This document shows, one piece after another, positions 937 through 34,251 of a stretch of 34,251 nucleotides of DNA. Under the pieces are notes generated by a model. The model was not told the origin of the DNA. It saw nothing but the letters and a program-made list of their open reading frames with translations, and ran no database searches. The position numbers were made by a program, and so were the translations under genes. Source of the stretch: a virus; IMG/VR virus record IMGVR_UViG_3300025933_000197, positions 1 to 34,251 of that record; one strand, given 5' to 3'. Every line of letters starts with the position of its first letter. The first letter of the stretch is position 1.

Positions 937-1584
937 ATGTCCAGGGGTATATCGGTTACAGCACTGATCGATTGGAAATCACAGATGCATAACTGTGGTG
1001 CTGACAAACTTAGCGACCGTATAGAACAAGCATCGAGAACGCTTCAAAGGACAGTATCGGCAATAGGAAAAGCCCTAAACAAACTTGATAAAACGTCAAG
1101 ATACAAAGTAACGCTACGACTGTACCATGGCTGGAGCAAGGGTTATGAGTGGACCCCAAACCGAAGTGCCGTTGTAAGCGCTATAGCCCAGACGGATTTC
1201 TCCGTTATATCCCGCTTCCCGAACATAGTTATTAACCCAGAAATTTCCTACGGCGATTTATTGCTTTCAGGCCTATCACATAGAGTTTCAAAGTCAAAAA
1301 ACATTCACTTACCAGGTACACTAAGGGATAGAGGCGGTGACAGTGTTGGGGAAAAGATGGTTGACACTGCATTAGCATCCGACTTGTTAAGCTTGGCATT
1401 TAGCGATCCCAAGGATTGGTCTATTGTTCTAGCTGAGGACGATGACTTAGTACCACCAATATTTACTGCAGAAGCTTGGAAAGACCGTCACGGCGGAAAA
1501 GTTTACTTATTACGAAAGAGAAGCGTAGCAAAGAGTAAAGTGCTTTTGGGCGGGCTAATATTAGAGGGCGGCTGGAATGATTGA
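937..1584 (+). CDS. NYN/PIN-like domain protein, putative RNase effector of a two-gene NACHT system
   Basis: 215 aa. The fold signature is that of NYN (PIN-like) metal-dependent RNases: a first beta strand ending in an acid (VTALIDW, D12), a long variable insert, a central helix with GEKMVDTALASDL (D143, D149) and a last strand with VLAEDDDLVPPI (E167, D168-D170). These acids are where the family coordinates its metal ion. NYN proteins usually cleave tRNA, mRNA or other RNA; the substrate here is unknown. ATG 937 is chosen because it precedes the first core strand directly and a GGAA lies 9 nt upstream. The 3' end overlaps the NACHT gene by 8 nt, implying translational coupling. Codons are much more AT-rich than in the neighbouring phage, a sign of transfer. 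Role as toxic effector is inference from the pairing. Confidence 0.7.
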   Translation: MSRGISVTALIDWKSQMHNCGADKLSDRIEQASRTLQRTVSAIGKALNKLDKTSRYKVTLRLYHGWSKGYEWTPNRSAVVSAIAQTDFSVISRFPNIVINPEISYGDLLLSGLSHRVSKSKNIHLPGTLRDRGGDSVGEKMVDTALASDLLSLAFSDPKDWSIVLAEDDDLVPPIFTAEAWKDRHGGKVYLLRKRSVAKSKVLLGGLILEGGWND

Positions 1585-3796
1585 TCAAGATTTGCTACTG
1601 AACGACCTAGCGTCCTTCTCCGATTTGGGAGTAACTCCTCCTAAACTAATTGTTGAAGGCAAAGAAATTGTAGCTCGTCTTACAAGGCATGGAGACGATC
1701 TCAGCCTACGTTTCCTCGAAAATGGACAGGTCCTTGAGCGTGTTAACGATGAAAATGAAACTAAACACGCAAACTACAGAGCTCTCTTAGCTTCGGACAG
1801 ATTCGGTAATCTCAGAGACTGGGCCTCCGTTCAATTCAGCGTTTTGACAGAAGAGTCAGCTGCTCAGCCGAAGCCTATTCCGGTGCTTGGATTCTTACAT
1901 TCAGCAAATACGGTAATGGATTTTTCAGGAGTAGATGACAAACTTGAAGAGACATCCTCTAACGACACGGCAAGAATACTTCTAATTGACGGTCCAGCAG
2001 GAATCGGGAAAACCGAGTTCATAAAACAGCTCTCATTAAAAAGAGCAGCAAACTTCAAGCGCACCCAAAAACCGCTAGTTCTCCACGTTCAAAGTCGCGG
2101 CAGAGTGCTGACTTTTCTTCAAGACTTAATCGCGTTCAGCTTACAGACTTTAAGGCTCCGCGTGACTTACGACCAAGTTCCTATTCTTGTCAGGAATGGA
2201 CTAGTTACAATTGCAATTGATGGATTTGATGAATTGGGTGACCCGTCGGGATATGAGACTGCATGGGCACAGGTGGGAGAACTTATAAATCAAGTGCGAG
2301 GACACGGTAGTTTAATCCTTGCAGGGCGTGAAACATTCATTGGTCGCGATAGGCTTGTACGTGATATCAAAGCACTTAAAGCAACCGACATTATTGACTC
2401 TGTTACGCTGCAGCCTCCAAGTACTGAAGCTGCAAGTACATGGTTGAAGCATCATGGATGGACGGACGATAGATTAAAGGACCTGGATGAACTGCTTCAA
2501 CCTGGATCATTTGCTTTAAGACCCATATTTCTAAGACACTTAGGAGAGAATGGATTAATTTCCGGACTATCGGAGACGGAAGGCTCTCTCTCAAACTTAA
2601 TCAGCTTAATGATAAAGCGAGAAGCGGGAAAATTTGGCCAGCCTGTAGAAGCAGCGTTGACTAATGAGCAGCTGCAACAGTTCGTCTTAAGCTTTCTTGG
2701 CGAAATCGCAAGGGACATGGCCGACAACCAAACGGAGTCAGCAGATGAAACAACTATTAAATGGGCTGCTGAAGCAGCGTTGAATGATAGCGTACCAGAC
2801 GAGATAAGTCGCCTCCTTCAGAACCGTGCTTTAGTTATGGCATTTTTGACGGCAGACGAGCGTCCTCGTTATAGACGCTTTTCCCATTCGCAACTTCAAA
2901 ACTATTTCCTTGGCCTTGAAACCGTATCTTTAATCAAAAACAGAGAGATACCTAAATTCCTTCGCAGAAACTTATTAAGCTCTGACTTCCTCATCACCTT
3001 CTCCAACGTACTTGACGAGCTAGCTTCAAAAAACAAAGATGAACTTATCGTCTTTATGGAATCCGCCTTTCATCTACTAGACAATTACCTAGGTACCGAC
3101 AGAGGGGCGAGAAATTTATCAGCCCTACTACTCTGCTGCGCGCCCTTTGGCGAACTAGTAAATAAATTTGGATTAAAAGGCCAGCAAATTGACGATGCGC
3201 TAATACGTGGAATCGCAAGTAGTTTCACTCTTAAAAATTGCAGCATCAATCAATTAGACGTAAGAGAAGCAGATATCACCAATGTTAATTTTGAAGACTG
3301 CACAATTGGTGGGCTAGTAATTGATGACAGAAGTAAAATCAACCTTTCCCTGCGTCCGTCCTATGTTCAGATGGAGAACGAAAGCGGTAACGGAGTATCG
3401 TTAACCTCTGAATCGGAGGCGATATCAAAACTTCTGAAAAACTTTTCACCAAATGTAGAAGGCGAATCAACTGAACATGATGAGCACCCCAAGATACTAG
3501 ATCATGCAATTTTCAAACTTCTTGATCGGGCAATTCGATATCGCGGCTATTGGTTTCGAGAGGATGGCGATGATGTTTTGGCAAAAAAAATCACTGATGA
3601 TCATCTATGGCCCGCCTTGTCAGAGCTGCTTTTAAAGCATGACTTTCTGAGAAAAGAAGAGCGAGTTGCTTCAGGACGGCCATCGCATTTTTATCATGTT
3701 AAAAGACCGCAACTTTTACAAAAGATCAATACTGACCCAGATACCGCGGCGCTTTATAAGGATCTGGGAGAATTCATAGCTCTGATCGACAGCTAA
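1577..3796 (+). CDS. NACHT-type STAND NTPase, putative sensor/regulator of the NYN effector
   Basis: 739 aa. Residues 1-130 form an unrecognised N-terminal domain. The NTPase core has a Walker A at 139-146 (GPAGIGKT), a NACHT-style Walker B at 212-220 (IAIDGFDEL) and an arginine-bearing sensor strand LILAGRE at 246-252. A helical region follows to about 545, with FSHSQLQNYFLGL resembling the winged-helix end of the NACHT module. Residues about 550-584 read as seven pentapeptide-repeat-like units (ADITN, VNFED, CTIGG and similar). The last ~120 residues look like a winged helix-turn-helix. Such STAND proteins oligomerise on sensing an invader and switch on an effector; here the effector would be encoded by the overlapping upstream NYN gene. 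Low GC sets it apart from the phage. NACHT assignment is firm; the defence role is inference. Confidence 0.8.
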   Translation: MIDQDLLLNDLASFSDLGVTPPKLIVEGKEIVARLTRHGDDLSLRFLENGQVLERVNDENETKHANYRALLASDRFGNLRDWASVQFSVLTEESAAQPKPIPVLGFLHSANTVMDFSGVDDKLEETSSNDTARILLIDGPAGIGKTEFIKQLSLKRAANFKRTQKPLVLHVQSRGRVLTFLQDLIAFSLQTLRLRVTYDQVPILVRNGLVTIAIDGFDELGDPSGYETAWAQVGELINQVRGHGSLILAGRETFIGRDRLVRDIKALKATDIIDSVTLQPPSTEAASTWLKHHGWTDDRLKDLDELLQPGSFALRPIFLRHLGENGLISGLSETEGSLSNLISLMIKREAGKFGQPVEAALTNEQLQQFVLSFLGEIARDMADNQTESADETTIKWAAEAALNDSVPDEISRLLQNRALVMAFLTADERPRYRRFSHSQLQNYFLGLETVSLIKNREIPKFLRRNLLSSDFLITFSNVLDELASKNKDELIVFMESAFHLLDNYLGTDRGARNLSALLLCCAPFGELVNKFGLKGQQIDDALIRGIASSFTLKNCSINQLDVREADITNVNFEDCTIGGLVIDDRSKINLSLRPSYVQMENESGNGVSLTSESEAISKLLKNFSPNVEGESTEHDEHPKILDHAIFKLLDRAIRYRGYWFREDGDDVLAKKITDDHLWPALSELLLKHDFLRKEERVASGRPSHFYHVKRPQLLQKINTDPDTAALYKDLGEFIALIDS

Positions 3797-3965: not shown

Positions 3966-4937
3966 TCATAAAGTAATATTTTTTAGCTTTCCGCCCAGCT
4001 GATCGGCACTGGCTGAATATCTTAGAAAATCGGCTGCATTCCCTGACACCGGTGTTGAACCATGGGTATGCTCGGCAAGTTTTTTATTCATTTGCTGCAC
4101 CAAGTTAAGCAGATCGCATACCACCTGGAATATATTTACGCTTTCGGATCCAATATAGTTTTTTGGCGCCAACAACCGCTGGCTTACCTCCGCCATGCTC
4201 TCTCGCAGCCCGCGGATTTTTTCCTCCATATTACTTCCTATCGTGGCGTTGTATTTCTGCCCCACCACCAGGTTCAAGTCTCGTCCGCTCGCCTGGTGCA
4301 GATCATCCACCGCCACCAAGCTTGCAGATCCGCCCGACAACAACTTGAGCGCACCTAGCGCCTCGATCCTCTTGGTTCCACCCACAGACTCAGTTGAATG
4401 GTCGTCTACCGTCCTGGTGTGATTCTGGAACGTCTCCGTGTTCCCCATCGCCTCCACTTCCCGCTCGATCGCCTTGTCCCGGATCTTGCCGTCCGTTTGG
4501 CGCAGCCAGTTGCCATCGGCGTCGACACGCTGCTGACAAGCTTCGCTGTGCTGCCACACTTGGTCACCCTTCGGCACGCTGGGCATGCTCAGACCGTGGG
4601 GCAGGATCGTTTGAATATAGGGCTTGTGCGGCAGGCCGTAGGCAAAGCACACCACAACCTGGGTGCCTTCCTCGGGAAAGGCATAGATGCCCATTTCCTC
4701 GCCACCGGTGGGTAGCGGCAGGGGCACGCCGGCCAAGATCGGCAGCTTGGTGTCTGGTTCACCATCGGGCCCCATGACCTCGATGTCGACCGCATAGCGC
4801 GGCCGGAAGTCGTCACAGATCCCGGCGCCGGCAGGGGCGTCGGCCACGGCGACAACCCGGGCAAAGCGTGGCAAGTGATAACCGCCGGTGAGTTCGGGAA
4901 ATTGTCGTTCTACGCTACGGCGTATTGCGTCGTCCAT
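3966..4937 (-). CDS. V: baseplate central spike protein (gpV-like)
   Basis: 323 aa. The first third has the look of the OB-fold of phage spikes (a beta-rich segment with PRYAVDIEV and a glycine/proline turn region, about 25-115). A middle region follows with repeated T/D/S-rich strands (LRQTDGKIRD through ASGRDLNLVVGQKYNATIGS), as expected for a trimeric beta-helix. The C-terminal part has a coiled helix and then EHTHGSTPV, an HxH motif like the one that binds iron at the tip of P2-type spikes. It is the last gene of the late operon and overlaps the hub gene by 28 nt. The spike sits on the hub and pierces the outer membrane when the sheath contracts. It is longer than P2 gpV (211 aa), typical of HP1-like phages as far as I recall. 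Confidence 0.75.
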   Translation of the reverse strand: MDDAIRRSVERQFPELTGGYHLPRFARVVAVADAPAGAGICDDFRPRYAVDIEVMGPDGEPDTKLPILAGVPLPLPTGGEEMGIYAFPEEGTQVVVCFAYGLPHKPYIQTILPHGLSMPSVPKGDQVWQHSEACQQRVDADGNWLRQTDGKIRDKAIEREVEAMGNTETFQNHTRTVDDHSTESVGGTKRIEALGALKLLSGGSASLVAVDDLHQASGRDLNLVVGQKYNATIGSNMEEKIRGLRESMAEVSQRLLAPKNYIGSESVNIFQVVCDLLNLVQQMNKKLAEHTHGSTPVSGNAADFLRYSASADQLGGKLKNITL

Positions 4938-5614
4938 CGGATGGCCATCTGGTTGTCGATGAGCGCCACACTGGTGATGCGCTCGCCGTGGTTGATTGTT
5001 GCACCTGGTCGCAACCCGGGAAGGGCCGCAATCATCGCGCTTTGATTACCCTGGTAGTCGTCGAACAGCTCGACCGGCAGCTGCAGCGCCGGGCGAACCC
5101 CAAAGAAGCTGTCGGCCCAACTGCCCACGAACACTTCCCCGTCGCCCTGCTGCTGCCAGATGAAGTCGGGGATATTGAAAACCCAGGCCAGGCTGTCCAT
5201 GGCCTGGTAGCCGGCGGCCAGGCAGTAGAAGAACGGCGCCTTAACGCCGGCGTAGGTACGATCCGGGACGCGAAAACGCAACCCAGTGTGCTGGCTGATC
5301 TCAACCAGGACGGCGCGCAGATCAACATGGCGCAGGTTCAGCGGCAACGGGTTGGCCAGGATCGCGGCCAGTTCACGGCAGAACAGCACCTGTTGCCCGC
5401 TGCTGGCAGTGGTGGAGCGCTCGACGTAGCCAATGAAGTGCCGCTGTAGCGTGCTGTTGTTGTAACCGATATCGAGGGTCACCAGCCCCTTGACCGCCGC
5501 TTTCGCTTGAATGGTGAACGTCGCCCGGCCTGGGCTTTTCGCGTCCAGCCGGACTTCGTTTTTGACCAGGACATAGGGCACGCCATTAATGGCCAACTCC
5601 TTGTGCAGCTTCAT
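4910..5614 (-). CDS. D: baseplate hub protein (gpD-like)
   Basis: 234 aa. The sequence is beta-rich with strands typical of the gp27/gpD tube-like hub fold (for example VRLDAKSPGRATFTIQ near 21-36 and LVTLDIGYNN near 44-53), then a segment with a short helix pattern (LRAVLVEISQHTGLRF) seen in hub proteins. It lies between the U-like gene and the spike gene, the usual D position, and overlaps both. The hub connects tail tube and spike. It is shorter than P2 gpD (about 387 aa), so one hub subdomain may be absent or reduced. Identification rests on order and general look, not on a decisive motif. Confidence 0.6.
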   Translation of the reverse strand: MKLHKELAINGVPYVLVKNEVRLDAKSPGRATFTIQAKAAVKGLVTLDIGYNNSTLQRHFIGYVERSTTASSGQQVLFCRELAAILANPLPLNLRHVDLRAVLVEISQHTGLRFRVPDRTYAGVKAPFFYCLAAGYQAMDSLAWVFNIPDFIWQQQGDGEVFVGSWADSFFGVRPALQLPVELFDDYQGNQSAMIAALPGLRPGATINHGERITSVALIDNQMAIRWTTQYAVA

Positions 5615-25836: not shown

Positions 25837-26013
25837 TTAGTCGACGTTAGAGGGCTCAGCGAGATAACCGGCAATTCGTCGCACTTGTTTACGGTCTTTT
25901 TCAGATAGCTGTCGGTATAGCTTGATAAGGCGCACCTCCAATGCCGTCAGCTCCAGCCATTCACAACCCAACGAGTCGCGATAACTGCTTTCCAATTTCT
26001 TGCGATCCAACAT
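25837..26013 (-). CDS. 58-aa protein with a repressor-like C-terminal motif
   Basis: Read from ATG 26013 to TAA 25837, with CGGAG 9 nt upstream, so a good start. The product has a basic N-terminus (MLDRKKLESSYRDS), then a helix (WLELTALEVRLIKLYRQL) and ends with LSEKDRKQVRRIAGYLAEPSN. The last motif resembles the end of the repressor encoded next to it (LPPDDQKTVRRIVKSMA). The same helix occurs at the end of many short phage repressors, where it may mediate dimerisation. The gene is convergent with Ogr and in line with the repressor, so both may share one leftward transcript in the lysogen. Function unknown. Confidence 0.65.
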   Translation of the reverse strand: MLDRKKLESSYRDSLGCEWLELTALEVRLIKLYRQLSEKDRKQVRRIAGYLAEPSNVD

Positions 26014-26113
26014 GCGTACTGCTCCGTTATGGCATTTGCTGAATCGACGGTATTGGGCAGTTATCCCAAACGTGACGCAGCAATTTCCTTAGAGATACGC
26101 AAATTGTTACAAG

Positions 26114-26461
26114 TTAATGGCGATGTTCATCCGCCTCAGCAGCCATGGACTTAACGATTCGACGCACAGTTTTTTGATCATCAGGAGGCAAGCGCCTGAA
26201 CTGCTCGACCAGGTCCGCTTCTGCTGGATCAAGGCCCTGACTAGGTGGCGGAGATCGATGTCCAGAAAGAACGTAGCCCGCGTCAACCTTGTGCTCCGTC
26301 AATGCAGAAACGTAGCGAAGGTCCAATGAATTGGCGCCTAACTCGTAATTTTTTTGAGTTCCACGGCTGACTCCTAACAACGTCCCAAAATCCGTTTGAT
26401 TCAAACCTAAGCGCTCGCGCTCTTCTCTTAGGCGATCACCTACTCCGTCAGCTATGAGCAT
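26114..26461 (-). CDS. CI-like transcriptional repressor, short XRE/HTH type
   Basis: 115 aa from ATG 26461. A helix-turn-helix lies at about 5-60 (GVGDRLREERERLGLNQTDFGTLLGVSRGTQKNYELG). A linker SGHRSPPPSQGLDPAEADLVEQ leads to a C-terminal helix, RRLPPDDQKTVRRIVKSMAAEADEHRH. There is no S24 peptidase domain, so RecA-driven self-cleavage is not expected; induction may be non-SOS or use an antirepressor. A GTG at 26473 is an alternative start. The open frame to 26539 crosses the operator region and is not used. It is divergent from the Cro-like gene, the typical lysogeny switch. Confidence 0.85.
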   Translation of the reverse strand: MLIADGVGDRLREERERLGLNQTDFGTLLGVSRGTQKNYELGANSLDLRYVSALTEHKVDAGYVLSGHRSPPPSQGLDPAEADLVEQFRRLPPDDQKTVRRIVKSMAAEADEHRH

Positions 26462-26478
26462 TTTTTTATTCACCACAC

Positions 26479-26544
26479 TTGACCTGATCAATTTTTTGAC
26501 CAAGAATCGCCACAGACAAACAGAAACAACCACAAACAAACAGA
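26479..26544. promoter_or_regulatory. switch region between repressor and Cro with two sets of direct repeats
   Basis: TTGACC occurs at 26479-26484 and 26496-26501 (17-nt spacing) with the palindrome TGATCA between. ACAAACAGA occurs at 26516-26524 and 26536-26544, exactly 20 bp apart, two helical turns. The second pair lies just before the Cro start. These are the likely operators for the repressor and the Cro-like protein. TTGACC at 26496 could also be a -35 element for the rightward promoter, with a poor AACAGA at -10. Confidence 0.5.
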
Positions 26545-26550
26545 GTAGAC

Positions 26551-26754
26551 ATGATGCCCGCCACCATTACACCCGAGCAAGCCCGGGCCGCTCTTGATCA
26601 CAAGGGAGTGAGCATCGCGGAATTCAGCCGCCAGCACGGATTGAATAAAAATTTAGTCAGCGACCTATTGAACGGTCGGATCAAAGGTCGCCGGGGGGAG
26701 GCACATCGCGCCGCCGTGTTGCTCGGTATTAAAGACGGCGTAATTGCACAGTAA
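26551..26754 (+). CDS. Cro/Cox-like small DNA-binding protein
   Basis: 67 aa. A helix-turn-helix is seen at about 17-55: GVSIAEFSRQHGLNKNLVSDLLNGRIKGRRGEAHRAAVLLGI, a pattern used by Cro-like proteins in many Pseudomonas prophages. Start at ATG 26551 or, one codon on, ATG 26554; GAG lies 5-8 nt upstream. Its stop overlaps the next possible start (TAATG at 26752-26756). It is the first gene of the rightward early operon and likely represses the CI-like gene and controls its own operon. Confidence 0.8.
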   Translation: MMPATITPEQARAALDHKGVSIAEFSRQHGLNKNLVSDLLNGRIKGRRGEAHRAAVLLGIKDGVIAQ

Positions 26755-26783
26755 TGGTCAGATCTCTGAGGGAACAGCAGAAG

Positions 26784-27263
26784 ATGAAAAATCAGGTTCT
26801 AAAAACACGCCGGGAAGTCGTCAGTGCAATTATTTGCACCTTCGAAGGTGGCCGCGAACGCGCCGCTGCTCACATCGGCCTGCCACTCAAAAAGTTTGAT
26901 AACCACGCTTACGAGAACAACAACTGCCGCCCGCTGACGGACCTGCAGATTTTCGACCTGGAAAAAGTCACGGGCACACAGCACCTGGCTAACTACGTTG
27001 CCGCAATGTATGGCGGCATGTTCGTGCCAATCGTCCATCCGGAAAACTTGGACAACGTTGAGATGTATACCCGAGCAGTGCAGACGTTAGCCAAGCGGGG
27101 CACCGTGGATCAGATCATTGCCCAGGCGCTTGATGACGGCGTAATCACCGAGGATGAAGCCGAACTGATCCTGAATGCTCATATCTCGCACATGGCAGCA
27201 CGCACTACCGAAGTCCACGCTGCTATCGATCTGTACTGCGCCAAATCAGGGAAAGGCCAATGA
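26784..27263 (+). CDS. phage regulatory protein, CII family (CP76/YmfL-like)
   Basis: 159 aa from ATG 26784 (MKNQVLKTRREVVSAI); a TAATG-coupled ATG at 26754 would add 10 residues. The sequence has the block VVSAIICTFEGGRERAAAHIGLPLKKFDNHAYENNNCRPLTDLQIFDLEKVTG, typical of the Phage_CP76 family, in which this fold includes a helix-turn-helix. C-terminal helices include QTLAKRGTVDQIIAQALDDGVITEDEAELI. In 186 and related phages CII promotes lysogeny by activating a promoter for the repressor. Overlaps the next gene by ATGA. Confidence 0.75.
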   Translation: MKNQVLKTRREVVSAIICTFEGGRERAAAHIGLPLKKFDNHAYENNNCRPLTDLQIFDLEKVTGTQHLANYVAAMYGGMFVPIVHPENLDNVEMYTRAVQTLAKRGTVDQIIAQALDDGVITEDEAELILNAHISHMAARTTEVHAAIDLYCAKSGKGQ

Positions 27264-27496
27264 ACATTCAACCCAACACCCTGGACTACCAACAATGCGT
27301 ACAGAACGCTGCACTGGCATTTCTTGAGCGCCATCAAGCCGAACACCTGGGCGACACACGGGCACTACACCGCCGTGTAATCGATCACTTGATTGACCGC
27401 TTCAACGTGTCCGAACCAGTGGCAGACAAACTGACCGCACTCGCCTACACCGAGCTGGTGGACATCGCACGCTGTAAGCGCCCCGCCAATCCGTAA
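27260..27496 (+). CDS. small hypothetical protein, 78 aa
   Basis: Translationally coupled to the CII-like gene (ATGA at 27260). Acidic/neutral, helical, with ALAFLERHQAEHLGDTRALHRRVIDHLIDRFNVSEPVADKLTALAYTELVDI. It ends with a Lys-Arg tail (CKRPANP). No domain is recognised. It is part of the early operon before the replication gene. Possible DNA-binding accessory or a regulator; no motif allows a firmer statement. Confidence 0.7.
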   Translation: MNIQPNTLDYQQCVQNAALAFLERHQAEHLGDTRALHRRVIDHLIDRFNVSEPVADKLTALAYTELVDIARCKRPANP

Positions 27497-27520
27497 CACC
27501 TAACCCAACCAATCGCCGCC

Positions 27521-27535
27521 CCCACGTGCCGTGGG
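27521..27535 (+). other. short hairpin in the early operon
   Basis: CCCACG TGC CGTGGG forms a 6-bp GC-rich stem with a 3-nt loop in the 74-nt gap between two small early genes. The following TTTGGGTG is not a U-tract, so it is a weak terminator or attenuator at best, or a stabilising RNA structure. Confidence 0.35.
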
Positions 27536-27570
27536 TTTGGGTGAGCTGCGCCCGAAATTAAGGTTTAACG

Positions 27571-27804
27571 ATGACAAACGCCGTAATTGTCACCACACAA
27601 CTGCCCCCAGCCGAGGCCGAAGCGTTGCTGGCCAACCTGCGTGAACAGTATCGCTTGAGCCTCAACGAACACTGGTACGACGACCAATTCCGCCTCGTGG
27701 CGGCCGGTCTGCGCCACGGCGCGATTCTCGCTCACATTCCGGTTATGGCTGCGCAAAAACGCCTCATGGCAGCCCTGTCCCACAGCCTCAAAGCAGTGAA
27801 GTAA
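27571..27804 (+). CDS. small hypothetical protein, 77 aa
   Basis: Start ATG 27571 after a TTAAGGTTTAACG leader (AAGG 8-9 nt upstream). The product is soluble, with TTQLPPAEAEALLANLREQYRLSL and AAGLRHGAILAHIPVMAAQKRLMAALSHSLKAVK. I recognise no domain. It lies 4 nt before the primase-helicase and is likely co-translated. It may be a small partner of replication, by position only. Confidence 0.65.
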   Translation: MTNAVIVTTQLPPAEAEALLANLREQYRLSLNEHWYDDQFRLVAAGLRHGAILAHIPVMAAQKRLMAALSHSLKAVK

Positions 27805-27808
27805 CCCC

Positions 27809-30607
27809 ATGAAAGAAGATCTTCGCCACGACGTGTTGCAGCGCCTCCAGTCCGACTTCGGGCTCAAGCACCGCACGGGCACCGACTACATGCGCGGCGG
27901 CACCTGCCCGAAGTGCAAAAAGAAAGAGCTGTACTCCCGCTTTGACACGCCATGGATGGTGATTTGTGGCCGCCCTGAAAAGTGTGGCCACACCCTGCAC
28001 GTGAAGGAGCTGTACGACGATCTGTTTGAAGATTGGAGCAAACGTGCCCCGGCGACAGACCAACATCCCAACGCCACCGCACGCGCTTATCTGGAGTTCG
28101 CCCGAGGCTTTCGGTTTGAGCTGATCCAGGGATGGTTCACCCAGGAAACGTTCTATTCCGTTGAACACAATGCCGGCAGCGCCACTGTGCGGTTCGCCCT
28201 GGAAAAAGGCGGTTGGTGGGAACGCCTGATCGATCAGCCGCACCGCTTCGGCAAGATGAAGGCTCGCTTCAAATCCAAGGACAGCTATCGCGGCGTCTGG
28301 TGGTGCCCGCCCTGCGTCGATCTGCTTGAGGCCAAGGAAATCTGGATCGTTGAAGGGATCTTCGACGCCATTGCCCTGGTGCACAACGACATCGCTGCCG
28401 TGTCTGCAATGTCGTCCAACGCGTTCCCTGGGGACTCGCTCAGGGAACTGGTTAAAACCCGGGAAGGCGGGAAGCTGCCCAAACTGGTTTGGGCTCTGGA
28501 CAACGAACCGAGCGCAAACGCCTACACCCGGCGCTGGGTGCGCGAAGCCCGTGCCCTGGGTTTCATCTGCGAGTCCGCACAGATCCCGCAACGCGACGGC
28601 CGAAAGTCTGACTGGAACGATCTTCACCAGCGTTGGAACTTCATCCAGGACGAAACCAAACGTGCCGACCAGATCGCCAGCGACCTCAAGCAAGCTCGCC
28701 ACCAGGGCGCCCTGCTGCTGGCCGAGAGCGCGGCGGAAAAGGCATTGCTCATGTACGACTGGAACAAGCGCGGGGAATTTCACCTGGGCTTCGGGAGCCG
28801 CCTGTACTGGTTCAAGTTGGACATGGAGAAATTCAACCGCGCCATGTCCGACATTGAGGACAGCGAGAACCACGACGACCAGCTGCTGAACCAGGCGCAA
28901 CAGCGCGAAAAAGCGCTGCAGCAGTCCGGCAGCGTCGTGGAGATCGCCAACTGCTACCCCCAGGCGCTGTATTTCCAGCGAAACGAGGTAACAGACGAGT
29001 CCTGGTACTACATGCGTGTGGACTTCCCCCATGATTCCGAAAGTGTGAAAAACACCTTCACCAGCGGCCAATTGTCGGCCGCGAGCGAGTTCAAAAAGCG
29101 ACTGCTCGGCATGGCGGCAGGTGCCATGTTCACAGGCAGTGGCCAGCAGCTCGACAAGCTCATGAAGGACCAACTGTTCGGCATCAAAACCGTCTCAACG
29201 ATCGATTACGTAGGCTACAGCAAGGAATACGCCTGCTACGTCTACGGTGACATCGCGATCAAGGACGGCACCACCTACAAGGTCAACAGCGAAGACTATT
29301 TCGAGTTTGGCAAACTGCGCCTGAAAACCCTGCAGAAAGGCGTCCCGATCAAGCTGCAGCGCGAAGCGAAGGGCTTTGACGAGAAGTGGGTGCAGTTGCT
29401 GTGGACATGCTTCGGCGCCCAGGGCTTCGTCGCGCTGGTGTTCTTCTTTGGCTCGCTGTTCTGCGAACAGATCCGCGCCCGCTATCAGTCCTTCCCTTTC
29501 CTGGAAGCCACAGGTGAGGCCGGCGCCGGCAAAACCACCCTCTTGAACCTCCTTTGGAAACTACTCGGCCGCGAAGGCTATGAAGGATTTGACCCGATGA
29601 AATCCACCAAGGCTGGGCGCTCTCGTCTTATGGGCCAGGTCTCCGGCATGCCAGTGGTGTTCCTGGAAGCGGATCGCCACGGCGATGATCGGGCACACGC
29701 TAAAACCTTCGAATGGGACGAGCTGAAAGACTTCTACGGCGGCGGCACCCTGGCCACGAAAGGCGTCAAGACGGCCGGCAACGAGACGTACGAGCCACAA
29801 TTCCGGGGAACGATCGCGATCAGTCAGAACGCGGCCGTGGTCGCCCACGAAGCGATCATGACGCGGATCGTGAAGTTGCACTTTGTACGCCCGACCGTCA
29901 CGCCGGAAAGCCGTGCTGCAGCGGATCAACTCAACGCCCTGGACGGCGACACCCTCAGCCACTTCCTGTTGCGAGCCGTGGGCAAGGAATCCGCGGTGCT
30001 GGAGCTGTTCGCCCAGCGCATGCCTGAACACGAGTCGAAGTTGCGCCGTTTGCACACCCATTGCTTCGCCTGCAGCACGATCTACACCAGCGAGCAAGGC
30101 AATTGCACCAGTTGTGGCTATGACCTACGCGGCTATATCCGCGTGGAGCGCATCAGCAAAAACCACGCGCAAATGCTCTCGCTGTTGGACGGCCTGCGCC
30201 TGGTCCTGAAATTGAGCGACCCTCAAGTCGCCGCCACACAACGCCAGATCGTACGGATGGCCATTGAGCGTCAGGCCTCGATCAGCTCCGACCATGCGGC
30301 CGTGGCCGAGTTTTGGGAAGTCTACGACTACCTAGAATCCTTGAGCGAAGACCCCGTGGTCGACCACAGCACGGACCCTACCGTGATCGCTATCAACCTC
30401 AACGAGTTCTGTGAACGTGCGGCTGAACACAAACAGAAATTGGCCGACGTGGCCACGTTGCGCGACCTGCTTAAAGAGTCCCGCTCGCATAAGTTTTTGG
30501 ACAGCAACAAGGCCGTGCACAGCGCCGTGCGCGCTGCATTTAACAGCCGCAACCCGTGTTCACAACCCCGGCCGACCACAGTGAAGTGCTGGACATTTAA
30601 GGCGTAA
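27809..30607 (+). CDS. phage primase-helicase: zinc finger, TOPRIM and P-loop helicase domains
   Basis: 932 aa. Order: an N-terminal zinc ribbon (C33-P-K-C36 ... C53 ... C59GH), a TOPRIM domain with WIVEGIFDAIALV near 178-190 and LVWALDNEPSANA near 228-240 (the acidic DxD position reads D-N-E here), a linker domain, then a P-loop ATPase with Walker A GEAGAGKTT near 568-576 and Walker B PVVFLEADRHGDD near 615-627, and TIAISQN as a sensor strand. A C-terminal four-cysteine motif (HCFACSTIYTSEQGNCTSCGYDL, near 750-772) follows. It would prime and unwind DNA at the phage origin. P2 and HP1 use a gpA-like rolling-circle initiator instead; none is seen here. Possible origin sequences were not found. 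Confidence 0.87.
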   Translation: MKEDLRHDVLQRLQSDFGLKHRTGTDYMRGGTCPKCKKKELYSRFDTPWMVICGRPEKCGHTLHVKELYDDLFEDWSKRAPATDQHPNATARAYLEFARGFRFELIQGWFTQETFYSVEHNAGSATVRFALEKGGWWERLIDQPHRFGKMKARFKSKDSYRGVWWCPPCVDLLEAKEIWIVEGIFDAIALVHNDIAAVSAMSSNAFPGDSLRELVKTREGGKLPKLVWALDNEPSANAYTRRWVREARALGFICESAQIPQRDGRKSDWNDLHQRWNFIQDETKRADQIASDLKQARHQGALLLAESAAEKALLMYDWNKRGEFHLGFGSRLYWFKLDMEKFNRAMSDIEDSENHDDQLLNQAQQREKALQQSGSVVEIANCYPQALYFQRNEVTDESWYYMRVDFPHDSESVKNTFTSGQLSAASEFKKRLLGMAAGAMFTGSGQQLDKLMKDQLFGIKTVSTIDYVGYSKEYACYVYGDIAIKDGTTYKVNSEDYFEFGKLRLKTLQKGVPIKLQREAKGFDEKWVQLLWTCFGAQGFVALVFFFGSLFCEQIRARYQSFPFLEATGEAGAGKTTLLNLLWKLLGREGYEGFDPMKSTKAGRSRLMGQVSGMPVVFLEADRHGDDRAHAKTFEWDELKDFYGGGTLATKGVKTAGNETYEPQFRGTIAISQNAAVVAHEAIMTRIVKLHFVRPTVTPESRAAADQLNALDGDTLSHFLLRAVGKESAVLELFAQRMPEHESKLRRLHTHCFACSTIYTSEQGNCTSCGYDLRGYIRVERISKNHAQMLSLLDGLRLVLKLSDPQVAATQRQIVRMAIERQASISSDHAAVAEFWEVYDYLESLSEDPVVDHSTDPTVIAINLNEFCERAAEHKQKLADVATLRDLLKESRSHKFLDSNKAVHSAVRAAFNSRNPCSQPRPTTVKCWTFKA

Positions 30608-30622
30608 AGGAGAGCAAGACCG

Positions 30623-30916
30623 ATGCAGATCCAAGTGTTTATGGGCAATGCCGGCGACGGCAAAACTAGCAAGCTGCAGGGAGTACAGGACCGCCTGAAC
30701 CTCACCGGTGAGAGCGCACCGATCATCCAGGCCGGTGCATATGGGGAGGATGGCTTGTTGGAGATCCTGGAAGTTCGGGCAGCCGGTGGCCAGCGCGAAA
30801 TCCTAGTGGACGACTGCAGCCGGCAACAAATTCTGAGGGTACTGGAGTGGCAATCATGCGTTGAGCATGAGCGCGATTTTGACTGCCTGGTGATCCACCT
30901 GGCCCGCAAGGACTGA
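30623..30916 (+). CDS. 97-aa protein with Walker A and Walker B motifs
   Basis: Begins MQIQVFMGNAGDGKTSKLQ: a strand then a P-loop G8-N-A-G-D-G-K14-T15. REILVDDCS near 58-66 is a good Walker B with D63 D64. A final strand CLVIHLAR follows. This is the smallest reading of a P-loop fold and too short for a full NTPase, so it may be a stripped AAA/FtsK/VirD4-like fragment or a nucleotide-binding regulator of the primase. A ribosome binding site AAAGGAG lies 9-12 nt upstream of ATG 30623, 15 nt after the primase stop. Function unknown. Confidence 0.75.
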   Translation: MQIQVFMGNAGDGKTSKLQGVQDRLNLTGESAPIIQAGAYGEDGLLEILEVRAAGGQREILVDDCSRQQILRVLEWQSCVEHERDFDCLVIHLARKD

Positions 30917-30930
30917 CCATTTGAAAAGCA

Positions 30931-30958
30931 GTGTCGAGGAGTTGCAGCTCCCCGACAC
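30931..30958 (+). other. strong RNA hairpin between early genes
   Basis: GTGTCG and CGACAC pair, then an A/C mismatch, then GGAG with CTCC around a 6-nt loop. No U-tract follows, so it is not a classical terminator. It could protect the upstream mRNA or lower expression of the next gene. Confidence 0.5.
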
Positions 30959-30982
30959 CCAACCACCACCGAGGACTAAACC

Positions 30983-31231
30983 ATGCAAGCACAGACCCAC
31001 AGCAGCAGCGGCACGAAGGCTACCACACCGGCACGGCACCTGGTGGCCACCGCGATTATCGGCGCGGCCGTAATAGGCTACCTGGTACATAAAACGCCCG
31101 AATCACGAACCCGTCTCGAAAGCCTCAGCCAGATGGCCGACACTCTGGGCGAACTGAGCGAAACGGACGCGGCCGTGGTCGCCCAACTGCTCGCCAAACC
31201 AGCAACACGGGGTGTATCAGGCAATGTCTAA
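30983..31231 (+). CDS. small single-span membrane protein, 82 aa
   Basis: A Ser/Thr-rich polar N-terminus is followed by one transmembrane helix (LVATAIIGAAVIGYLV, about 20-35) and a soluble C-terminal part with helices (TRLESLSQMADTLGELSETDAAVVAQLLAKPATRG). GAGGAC precedes the ATG at 8-10 nt. Its end overlaps the next gene by 8 nt. No known family is recognised. An early-expressed membrane protein in a prophage could act in superinfection exclusion; this is only a guess. Confidence 0.65.
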   Translation: MQAQTHSSSGTKATTPARHLVATAIIGAAVIGYLVHKTPESRTRLESLSQMADTLGELSETDAAVVAQLLAKPATRGVSGNV

Positions 31232-31394
31232 GCGTCCTGCAGCAGCACGCGTGCGGCGCTTTCCCTGGAACATCGATCACACCAGCGTTTGCGATCAATG
31301 CGGCAATTGGCGTGTTCAGGGTAGTCACTTGAAATGCAGCCGGCAGCGCCAGCTGCAGAATGCCCACCTACGCAACCACAAGCCGAAACGGTAA
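31224..31394 (+). CDS. small basic Cys-containing protein, 56 aa
   Basis: Start at ATG 31224, coupled to the preceding gene by an 8-nt overlap; a GTG at 31212 is an alternative. The sequence MSKRPAAARVRRFPWNIDHTS is very basic. CDQCGNWRVQGSHLKC gives C-x2-C...C with a His between, so one zinc finger-like knuckle is possible. It ends in a basic tail HLRNHKPKR. It may bind nucleic acid. It is the last gene before a strong terminator. Confidence 0.6.
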   Translation: MSKRPAAARVRRFPWNIDHTSVCDQCGNWRVQGSHLKCSRQRQLQNAHLRNHKPKR

Positions 31395-31429
31395 GCCGCG
31401 TCCACCAGAAGATGCGCTACCAGATACTT

Positions 31430-31454
31430 GGCCCGGAAACGGGCCTTTTTGTTT
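31430..31454 (+). terminator. Rho-independent terminator of the early operon
   Basis: GGCCCG GAAA CGGGCC is a perfect 6-bp stem with a GNRA tetraloop, followed by TTTTTGTTT. It lies 35 nt after the last early gene and 46 nt before the integrase start, so most early transcripts should stop before the integrase. Confidence 0.9.
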
Positions 31455-31500
31455 CCGATCGTCAGACTGTCGTTACACGAGTACAGCGTTAGGGGTTTAC

Positions 31501-32685
31501 ATGAGTGGGGTCGAAGCTCGCGGTAATTCCGTGAGAATCTATTTTCAATACAACGGCGAAAAATGCCGAGAGTCGATACCAGGAGGTAACAAACCGGCCA
31601 CAGTGGCCCAGGCAAAGCGCTTGCTCGCCATCATTGAATACGAGATCGACTCCGGCACCTTTGATTACGCTCGCCACTTTCCCAACTCGGCCAGGTTGGT
31701 GGAAAACACTTTTGGTCACTACTTGGATCTGTGGTTGCGGATCAAGGCCAACAGTGTGGCGGCGTCGAGTTATCGCGGCTACGCCAACAAGGCCGAAGTA
31801 CATGTGCGGCCACGTTGGGGCAAGGTACAGATCAACGCGATTGATCACCTGGACCTGCAGGAGTGGATTCAGGGCACGTTATCCAAAACCCTCAAAAACA
31901 AAACCATCCGCGACATCATCAGCAACGTACGCCAGGTGTTCCGGCTCTATCGCACCCGGATGAAAGTAGCTCACGATCCCACCGAGGGCTTGATGGTTCG
32001 CCTCCCCGATCCGGAAGCACCGGACCCGTTTACCCGGGCGGAAATCAAGCAGATCCTGGAAACACCGACCACCCGCACCTTTGAGCTGCTGATGGTGCAG
32101 TTCATGTTGTGGGCTGGACCCCGCGTCTCCGAAACGATCGCCTTGGCTTGGGAGGACGTCGACCTGGTAGGCGGCACGGTGACCTTCCGTCGGTCGAAGG
32201 TGCGCGGCGCCTACCGCGTCACCAAAACCCGCCGTTCAATGCGCAAGGTGCGTTTGCTGGCTCCCGCGTGGGACGCGTTACGCCAGCTCGATGCGCTGAC
32301 TCGAAAGCGAAAAGCAGAAACCGTGGAGATCGTGGAGCGCGACAACAAGACCGTGCGCAAGCACACCCTGCACTTCGTATTCCTGAACACCAAAAGCGGC
32401 CTTCCGCATGCCAACGACTTTGTCGTGCGTGACCGTTTCTTTAAGGCACATCTGCAGGCGGCAGGGGTTCGCTATCGCGGGCCAGGCCAGTGCCGGCATA
32501 CGTACGCCAGTCAGTTGCTGACGACGGGTATTGCCTCAATCGATTGGATCGCAGAACAGATGGGACATACCAACGGCAATATGATCCGTCAGCACTACGG
32601 GACTTGGATCAATGAGGACGGCCCGGACGTGGTCGGCATGCTGCAACTGGCGTTGAAGCTTTCGCCGCTTACAGCTCCACACTAA
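31501..32685 (+). CDS. int: tyrosine-type site-specific integrase
   Basis: 394 aa from ATG 31501, with TTAGGGG 5-8 nt upstream; the longer frame from 31360 runs through the terminator and is not used. Residues 1-60 are the arm-type binding domain of the DUF3596 kind (GNSVRIYFQYNGEKCRESIPG). A core-binding domain lies at about 62-165. The catalytic domain has R208 (WAGPRVSE), K242, R332-H333 (GPGQCRHTYAS), H356 (MGHTNG) and Tyr366 (IRQHYGTWI). The His of the HxxR box is replaced by G329, as in some members of this group (RNPYQTRHT type). It integrates and excises the phage. Its stop overlaps the 3' end of a flanking gene by 17 nt. Confidence 0.93.
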   Translation: MSGVEARGNSVRIYFQYNGEKCRESIPGGNKPATVAQAKRLLAIIEYEIDSGTFDYARHFPNSARLVENTFGHYLDLWLRIKANSVAASSYRGYANKAEVHVRPRWGKVQINAIDHLDLQEWIQGTLSKTLKNKTIRDIISNVRQVFRLYRTRMKVAHDPTEGLMVRLPDPEAPDPFTRAEIKQILETPTTRTFELLMVQFMLWAGPRVSETIALAWEDVDLVGGTVTFRRSKVRGAYRVTKTRRSMRKVRLLAPAWDALRQLDALTRKRKAETVEIVERDNKTVRKHTLHFVFLNTKSGLPHANDFVVRDRFFKAHLQAAGVRYRGPGQCRHTYASQLLTTGIASIDWIAEQMGHTNGNMIRQHYGTWINEDGPDVVGMLQLALKLSPLTAPH

Positions 32686-32907
32686 ACTCGCGTAACCCCA
32701 CCGCATCGGCAAATCGCCCTACAGCCGTCAGGCTGGCCCAGGTACGCAGCGCTTCGCGGCGCGAACGTACTGCCAACCAGCGGCTGTTAGTCCCCCCAGT
32801 CGGATAGCCAGCGTCCACTGGTCCTCCTGGCGGCTGACCAGCGTATCGCGTACTGCGCCGCCCTCCACCAGGGTGCGCAGTGCTTCTTCTTGAATTCCAT
32901 TGGGCAT
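32669..32907 (-). pseudogene. frameshifted short accessory gene at the prophage right end
   Basis: From ATG 32907 the frame reads MPNGIQEEALRTLVEGGAVRD through QWTLAIRLGGL and then stops out of register after ~60 codons. Another frame from the G6 run (32792-32797) reads NSRWLAVRSRREALRTWASL, then VGRFADAVGLREFSVEL to TAA 32669. One more G in this run would join the two into an ~79-aa protein with the look of small proteins found on Pseudomonas plasmids and integrative elements. Either a real inactivating frameshift or a homopolymer sequencing error. Another frame is open over the whole region (from 32917), but its first half looks like non-coding sequence. Confidence 0.6.
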
Positions 32908-32909
32908 GG

Positions 32910-33200
32910 TTAACCATGCCTCCTGACTCGCTCAGTGAAGTCGTTGACCTGCGCAGGCGTCAGGCAATTCAACTTACCGAACGTCACCAGGTGCTGGATC
33001 ATCGCTTCTTGACTGCCGGGTTCCTGAGCGACCATGCGCCGACAGGTCTTCTCCAGGATCAACCGCGCCAGCTCCGGGTTCTCTACCCGTGATGCATCGA
33101 AGGCCTGCGCGATGGCAACAGCCAACTCTCCGAGATCCGGGTTCTTACGCTGCAGAGCCCGTAAAGCCGTCATTTGCCGTGCGGTGATGGGTAACGACAC
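32910..33200 (-). CDS. hypothetical protein, 96 aa
   Basis: GTG 33200 is the chosen start because AAGGAAG lies 6-7 nt upstream; a GTG at 33224 would add 8 residues. The protein is helical: LPITARQMTALRALQRKNPDLGELAVAIAQAF, then LARLILEKTCRRMVAQEPGSQEAMIQHLVTFGKLN and VNDFTERVRRHG. No domain is recognised. It ends 2 nt before the frameshifted gene's ATG, so the two form one transcription unit. Likely part of the accessory element hosting the prophage. Confidence 0.65.
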   Translation of the reverse strand: MSLPITARQMTALRALQRKNPDLGELAVAIAQAFDASRVENPELARLILEKTCRRMVAQEPGSQEAMIQHLVTFGKLNCLTPAQVNDFTERVRRHG

Positions 33201-33285
33201 GTGTATCTTCCTTATTAGCCACACTCAGGCCAAGCGCAGCGGTAATGGTAGACCAGCCTGGCGGAGTGTGGTTTCCACCGGGCGC

Positions 33286-33309
33286 AAAAAAGCCCGCCGG
33301 AGCGGGCCT
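33286..33309 (-). terminator. Rho-independent terminator
   Basis: On the minus strand GCCCGC TCCG GCGGGC forms a 6-bp stem with a tetraloop, followed by TTTTTT. It ends transcription from the 33358-33576 gene and separates it from the 96-aa gene. Confidence 0.9.
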
Positions 33310-33357
33310 TGATGTGGGGGCCTTTTGAACATAAGTGGCGTTACTCGAAGCTGCTGG

Positions 33358-33576
33358 CTACTCTTCTGCCTGCCAGCGACCACCTACGTATTCGCCTTTA
33401 GGCGGCTCAGGATTAACCTTTCGTCCTAAAACATAGCATGCAACGACCGCCCGCTCGCCCGTACCTGGTTCGGCCGAGGACACAACTGCGACTATGCGCC
33501 AGCCCTCCTGAAGCGCTTCGTTAACCTCTGTAACGCTGAATAGCTCTTGAACTTCATCCACTTCATATAGTTGCAT
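33358..33576 (-). CDS. hypothetical protein, 72 aa
   Basis: ATG 33576 has an ideal AAGGAG 5-6 nt upstream. The sequence MQLYEVDEVQELFSVTEVNEALQEGWRIVAVVSS and VVACYVLGRKV forms an alpha/beta pattern like small proteins with the motif VNxxLxxGWxIVAV (DUF1737-like), in which the short domain is thought to be a binding or sensory module. Function unknown. It has its own terminator downstream and may be transcribed with the 201-aa gene upstream, 69 nt away. Confidence 0.75.
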   Translation of the reverse strand: MQLYEVDEVQELFSVTEVNEALQEGWRIVAVVSSAEPGTGERAVVACYVLGRKVNPEPPKGEYVGGRWQAEE

Positions 33577-33645
33577 AACAACTCCTTGTTGCCATTAGCC
33601 GCACCGAATCAGCGCGGGGGAATTACCATCCTCGATCCAGCATCG

Positions 33646-34251
33646 CTATTGTTGGCGGCTTTTCCTTTCCCGCTCATCTAAGTCAGCCATAACATCACGC
33701 ATGCTTTGATCGCGATCCCATTCGCCTGGAAGAGGTGCATCATCCGGTAAGCCTGCGTATATGCGAAGTTTCTTAACCAGGTCAGAAGCCTGTAAACCTA
33801 ATACAGCGTATCCCCGTCTCCTTGTCCAAAAAAACTCGGGATGATCGGGGGGGTCGTAATTGAACTCCTGTATTCCGCGAAGCTTTCCGTGTAGCTGATC
33901 TTGTTGATCGGGAATTCTGAGAATTGCGTACATGAGATCTTTGGGCAATAGCTTCCAGTCGACATCAAGTTCAAGTGGACTAAATACGGGGAAAGCAGTT
34001 GTCGATTCATAATGACCGTCTTGGCCTGCAGGCTGCCCCTGACATGTGCCATCGTCGATGCTCACGTCGAAGCAATGAGACGCGAACCGGTCCAAATGCG
34101 AAACAACAATAATCCCCAGGTATGTCGTGTTCTGGTTAACCGCCTTGCGCTTAGCCCACCATTCCTTAATGAGCACAAAAAAATTTCCGAGCAAGACACC
34201 GCTAATACCTGCGGCAGCGGAGATGATCGCTGAAACATTCCCTGCGTCCAT
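33646..34251 (-). CDS. membrane-anchored hypothetical protein, 201 aa
   Basis: The ATG is the last three bases of the window (reverse complement), so upstream signals are unseen. One N-terminal transmembrane segment (VSAIISAAAGISGVLLGNFFVLI, about 6-28) is followed by a basic turn (KEWWAKRKA) and a soluble domain, LGIIVVSHLDRFASHCFDVSIDD, PVFSPLELDVDWKLLPKDLMYAILRIPDQQDQLHGKL and QASDLVKKLRIYAGLPDDAPLPG. It resembles small membrane proteins of accessory regions; I cannot name the family. Lower GC than the phage. Complete if the ATG is the true start. Confidence 0.7.
   Translation of the reverse strand: MDAGNVSAIISAAAGISGVLLGNFFVLIKEWWAKRKAVNQNTTYLGIIVVSHLDRFASHCFDVSIDDGTCQGQPAGQDGHYESTTAFPVFSPLELDVDWKLLPKDLMYAILRIPDQQDQLHGKLRGIQEFNYDPPDHPEFFWTRRRGYAVLGLQASDLVKKLRIYAGLPDDAPLPGEWDRDQSMRDVMADLDERERKSRQQ

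Follow-up and report, generated by a model that had tools for sequence, protein, structure and literature searches.

A short open reading frame directly behind a phage primase-helicase gene encodes a protein of only 97 residues with a Walker A and a Walker B-like motif, and it raises the question of what so small a P-loop protein is kept for. An earlier note on this DNA had called it a mini P-loop protein and had offered three roles for it, namely, a nucleotide sensor, a dimeric mini-ATPase, or a decoy subunit. We addressed this question by homolog survey, structure prediction, and analysis of selection. "The window" here means the whole 34,251-nt stretch analyzed (IMG/VR virus record IMGVR_UViG_3300025933_000197).

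The mini gene and its neighbors

The open reading frame runs from an ATG to a TGA codon, as the ORF listing and translation show, and 15 nt separate its ATG from the stop codon of the primase-helicase gene (Table 1). It is a real gene and not a product of chance, because its product (P0001) found relatives on 114 viral-contig stretches and matches PHROG 7795 and because the median pN/pS in its branch is 0.16. The PHROG 7795 match joins residues 1 to 96 of P0001 to positions 1 to 96 of the 98 in the profile (E = 1.8e-21), and PHROG 19520 gave a weak match (9e-4). Neither PHROG carries a function in the PHROG library. P0001 matched no Pfam family and no PADLOC profile up to an E value of 1 (0 PADLOC families).

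Table 1. Features of the replication module in the window
Feature	Position	Strand	Evidence
Toprim primase-helicase, 932 aa, PHROG 1139; carries a Walker A, GEAGAGKT	27809..30607	+	Pfam/PHROG, sequence
Shine-Dalgarno-like AAAGGAG, overlapping the TAA stop of the primase gene (30605-30607)	30606..30612	+	Sequence
Mini P-loop-fold protein, 97 aa, PHROG 7795	30623..30916	+	ORF, PHROG match, AlphaFold pLDDT 89
Walker A GNAGDGKT, residues 8-15; lysine variable among close relatives	30644..30667	+	
Walker B-like ILVDD, residues 60-64, followed by Cys65	30800..30814	+	Sequence
Hairpin, 28 nt, GTGTCGAGGAGTTG/CAGCTCCCCGACAC, 14 nt past the mini-gene stop	30931..30958	.	Sequence
Next gene, 82 aa, PHROG 6684 (function unannotated)	30983..31231	+	PHROG match
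Tyrosine integrase, closing the module	31360..32685	+	Profile matches

Literature searches returned nothing on this protein family. A search of the PDB by sequence gave nothing convincing: RecA fusion chains were listed without any stretch that passed alone, and the remaining entries were weak. The link between PHROG 7795 and PHROG 19520, the P-loop fold, and the motif losses described below come from this work and not from prior annotation.

A family of short proteins behind phage primases

When a diverse alignment replaced P0001 as the query, relatives were found on 277 viral contigs; we kept 80 of the 114 stretches from the P0001 query and 80 of these 277. A search of genome contigs gave 25 family loci, all titled Pseudomonas. 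The family was matched in 51 of 398 genomes of a Pseudomonas genus sample, in 8 of 148 of a family-rank sample, and, in the search for relatives beyond Pseudomonadaceae, in 2 of 369 and 2 of 398 of class- and phylum-level samples, respectively, each being a sample and not a census; a limit to Pseudomonadaceae is at most suggested by these counts. Plasmids held no relative at an E value of 0.01.

Extraction from 265 loci yielded 266 members and 227 distinct proteins. Of the latter, 224 are 80 to 115 residues long and were aligned, and three were left out for length, one of 75 residues (L203), one frameshifted (L205), and one truncated where its contig stops (L234). That the mini gene is a fragment of a longer gene, which the earlier note had named as an outcome that would undo its reading, is ruled out by these lengths and by our seeing no member inside a longer gene. 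We also dropped the idea, raised by profile matches over residues 33 to 96, that the C-terminal half is the whole family joined to a swapped N terminus; the full-length proteins have a diverged N terminus. Distant members connect the two PHROGs: L237 and L244 match PHROG 19520 (7e-28 and 8e-44, respectively), and L242 matches both.

The placement after a primase-helicase gene that had been described for the window was borne out across the family, with a primase homolog upstream in 262 of 266 members and within 200 nt in 239. The four exceptions are L003, L082, and L121, whose surroundings are rearranged, and L146, which has an unrelated stretch upstream. A homolog of the PHROG 6684 type lies within 400 nt downstream of the mini gene in 148 of the 266.

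A predicted four-strand P-loop fold

AlphaFold gave a confident monomer model of P0001 (pLDDT 89.1, pTM 0.81) with strands at residues 2 to 6, 34 to 36, 59 to 65, and 90 to 95 and helices at residues 16 to 27, 42 to 54, and 67 to 79. The Walker A motif, the ILVDD stretch, and the last strand singled out earlier are thus present as claimed in the translation and in the model. L247, a distant relative with canonical motifs, was modeled with the same order of elements (pLDDT 86.0, pTM 0.76). Both models have four strands in a β-α-β-α-β-α-β arrangement, below the five-strand core, and P0001 ends two residues after strand 4.

Foldseek gave weak E values, with nothing below 0.001 (best values, 0.016 for P0001 and 0.004 for L247), and its top rows were mostly AAA+ ATPases, thymidine kinases, or replication ATPases. 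With VIA-align, L247 matched clamp loaders (Z 8.1, root mean square deviation 2.6, 88 residues aligned; residues 46 to 149 of yeast RFC and 43 to 140 of the T4 clamp loader) and a thymidine kinase (Z 7.9, 2.9, 82 aligned), while the best for P0001 among the matches listed was dynein residues 4038 to 4130, an AAA module (Z 8.4, 2.8, 90 aligned); these matches span the whole models, although a Z of about 8 can reflect a mere common arrangement and families outside the matches listed may resemble the models as well. The aligned clamp-loader stretch, ending at RFC residue 149 and T4 residue 140, may be read as running from strand 1 to strand 4. The fold is accordingly best described as a predicted mini P-loop of the ASCE/AAA+ kind, β1-(P-loop)-α1-β2-α2-β3(Walker B)-α3-β4, ending after the sensor-1 strand, with a strand order that we infer from the structural matches and not from coordinates.

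Compared with the ATPase core of AAA+ proteins and clamp loaders, the family has strands 1 to 4 with Walker A and Walker B in register, but the modeled protein lacks the fifth strand, the lid, sensor 2, and the arginine finger region. Thymidine kinases of the TK1 type have a similar strand arrangement, yet the mini protein is about half their length and has no room for the remaining kinase domain; Pfam gave no full-length thymidine kinase match for P0001 up to an E value of 1, and L237 matched only at 0.18, under the cutoff. The ATP site is gone from some of the AAA modules of dynein. Those modules form part of a very large ring protein, whereas the mini protein is separate and small. A 2020 article (PMC7758060) gives the minimal P-loop domain as five β-loop-α elements, and against that minimum a natural four-strand version would be unusual. 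The designed P-loop prototypes of about 50 residues (PMC10119929) are built round one Walker A; they are artificial, whereas the mini family is natural and has a Walker B and four strands.

The Walker motifs are canonical in deep branches, and Walker A is often lost near P0001

Distant members (L237, L242 to L245, and L246 to L265) carry a canonical Walker A, such as GPAASGKTT, GPQGSGKTT, or GEMATGKTT, together with a Walker B in the form IDEC, LIDDC, or LADDC, the exception being L262, with GGMATDKT. Both motifs fall within the same ~90 residues, which upholds the description of a stand-alone mini P-loop protein. Bridging proteins (L263 to L265) combine a canonical GEMATGKT with a C-terminal half that resembles that of P0001. 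That the family was never a P-loop family and that GNAGDGKT arose by drift is very improbable, even with many members lacking the motif and no Pfam family for P0001, and is largely refuted by the canonical deep branches and bridging proteins, with Walker A and B in register, and by the match of both models to P-loop domains over their full length.

Closer to P0001, the GDGKT of Walker A varies to GDGQT, GDGNT, GDGHT, GDGRT, and GDGKA, and the relative UFJF_PfPro and its kin have no P-loop. We divided the aligned proteins into canonical, window (that of P0001), and decayed (sister) groups by a rule of our own based on residue 63 and locus number. The pattern GxxxxGK[ST] occurs in 23 of the 24 proteins of the canonical group, in 62 of the 97 of the window group, and in none of the 103 of the decayed group, and in P0001's own branch a canonical Walker A is found in 68 of 103 distinct genes. 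Asp63, the acidic Walker B residue at the end of β3, is present in P0001 and in 96 of the 103 genes of its branch; in the decayed group, 102 of 103 proteins have L or M there, a count that is circular by construction, since residue 63 helps define the groups. The tree supports the grouping independently because it was built without the Walker A columns. It comprises 86 representatives and 90 columns, and many of its forks are open and long branches meet; canonical motifs lie on every deep branch except that of L262, and a derived clade of 70 rows holds 31 from P0001's side, with mixed motifs, and 39 without the motif. The Walker A reported in the note is exact in P0001 and canonical in nearly all of its deep relatives, but loss of the motifs in relatives, which it had set as a test of its reading, is what the data show: Walker A is gone from many close relatives and from the whole sister group. 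One phage (L161) has tandem family copies, canonical at 4648 to 4938 and decayed at 5001 to 5309.

Selection appears to have shifted away from the P-loop

We counted codon changes by parsimony on a FastTree tree of the 103 distinct genes of P0001's branch. Codon 14, for the Walker A lysine, has changed 13 times against a median of 2 and is the joint sixth-fastest of the 97 codons; the residue is K in 74 of the genes and N, Q, R, H, or I in the other 29. The codons for Gly13, Cys65, Trp76, His92, and Arg95 show zero changes, and Cys65, right after Walker B, is C in 223 of the 224 aligned proteins, even where the ATP site is gone. Mean identity in the P-loop and in α3 is 0.67 versus 0.39 in the canonical group, 0.81 versus 0.90 in the window group, and 0.30 versus 0.81 in the decayed group, so that the apparent constraint flips between the two elements across the groups. 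Median pN/pS values of 0.28, 0.16 (2,243 pairs), and 0.20, respectively, make all three groups look to be under purifying selection.

As a control, we read the helicase Walker A of the upstream primase. It was found in 250 of 266 members, with 245 canonical by our first pattern; the other 5 were pattern errors and proved canonical on rereading. In the 16 members where it was unreadable, the reasons include short loci, rearranged surroundings, and broken primase frames. Because the primase's own motif is intact wherever it can be read, the loss of the mini-protein motif is not general prophage decay.

The mini gene is optional in Citexvirus

The Citexvirus vB_PaeM-D14A has the mini gene between its primase gene and the next gene. 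In three other members of that genus (Dobby, Sirocco, and a PACL phage), the primase gene is followed directly by that next gene, with the mini gene cleanly missing, and a profile search of 13 phage loci (L268 to L280) found the family in D14A only. The Dobby and D14A primases are identical at 894 of 907 residues, so the primase needs no mini protein in Dobby, and the gene is an optional one, not an essential one. Direct repeats of 51 nt, which are 88% identical and hold the ribosome-binding site, lie on either side of it in D14A (L268:4957-5007 and 5289-5339), an arrangement which suggests that the gene is exchanged by recombination between leaders.

A probable partner of the replication module

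We propose with moderate confidence that the mini P-loop fold now serves the phage replication module as a noncatalytic partner or regulator that does not depend on nucleotide. The ancestor would have bound nucleotide, as the deep branches, given their canonical motifs, probably still do. In P0001's branch, nucleotide binding would no longer be what selection keeps; the protein would function through the conserved α2, α3, β3, and β4 as a small partner or regulator, most likely of the primase-helicase encoded just upstream. Several facts stand against this reading. P0001 and the 68 of 103 branch genes noted above retain the full Walker A, and some members of the branch may therefore still bind nucleotide; Asp63 is likewise retained in 96 of 103; the structural matches have weak Foldseek E values and a Z of only about 8; Dobby, Sirocco, and the PACL phage do without the gene; and L003, L082, and L121, in their rearranged surroundings, have no upstream primase homolog.

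The retained motifs lend something to the rival that P0001 is an active NTP-binding protein or nucleotide sensor, which binds and perhaps hydrolyzes NTP and controls the helicase according to its nucleotide state: P0001 has an exact GxxxxGKT and the Walker B Asp, Gly13 never changes, and deep relatives are canonical. We nevertheless consider it unlikely. Lys14 is replaced in 29 of 103 close genes, and the sister group, with neither Walker A nor the Walker B Asp, is still under selection. The sensor and the working mini-ATPase proposed in the note are thus improbable as the selected function in P0001's branch, Walker A being lost in relatives (68 of 103 genes retain it, 0 of 103 in the sister group), though P0001 itself retains the motif.

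A shade less probable again is an accessory anti-host or decoy gene (a moron), in which a cut-down AAA+ core jams a host AAA+ or replication protein or counters defense, the primase site being a landing place. The clean presence or absence in near-identical Citexvirus genomes, the flanking repeats, and an AAA+-like fold without a lid would all suit such a gene, and a lost ATP site would be in keeping with mimicry. However, morons usually move about, and 262 of 266 copies remain behind a primase homolog; P0001 also has no PADLOC match, and for that reason we rejected a defense function as well.

Beyond the partner reading, we advance more tentatively, as something a little short of probable, that the family is a natural, free-standing four-strand P-loop protein of about 90 residues, under the five-strand minimum, whose deep branches bind nucleotide and of which one lineage has become a nucleotide-free adaptor or decoy. 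If so, the conversion has been caught midway: within the family the ATP site ranges from whole through half lost to absent, and L161 carries an intact copy next to a decayed one. The family is also a clear case of an enzyme-type site lost from a protein still under selection, beside a replication enzyme that keeps its site. Two PHROG families of unannotated function gain a predicted fold and a common history, and the family offers a natural test set for the minimum working size of a P-loop, in which the intact and decayed relatives can serve as controls for each other.

Surroundings of the module

The neighbors in the window (a CII-like regulator, a portal, and the integrase) and the phage relatives UFJF_PfPro and vB_PaeM-D14A (Peduoviridae) suggest that the window comes from a P2-like prophage of Pseudomonas. 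Among the 259 members whose sequence reaches far enough, 208 have a match to the hairpin (at most 6 substitutions) downstream of the mini gene, in most cases within 20 nt. Its 28 variants show G-C/A-T exchange at pairs 1/28 and 10/19, but pairs 4/25 and 7/22 are mismatched (A-C or C-A) in many. Rfam gave no match over positions 26000 to 34251, hairpin included, up to an E value of 0.5.

Elsewhere in the window, two overlapping ORFs of 215 and 739 aa on the plus strand (937-3796) are a possible defense pair; the longer has a NACHT-like match (1.6e-5) just under Pfam's cutoff, and the shorter has a weak match to PADLOC HEC-09 (2.3e-5). Beyond the integrase gene, an ORF on the minus strand (33646-34251) matches the PADLOC candidate defense protein PDC-S67 (3e-74).
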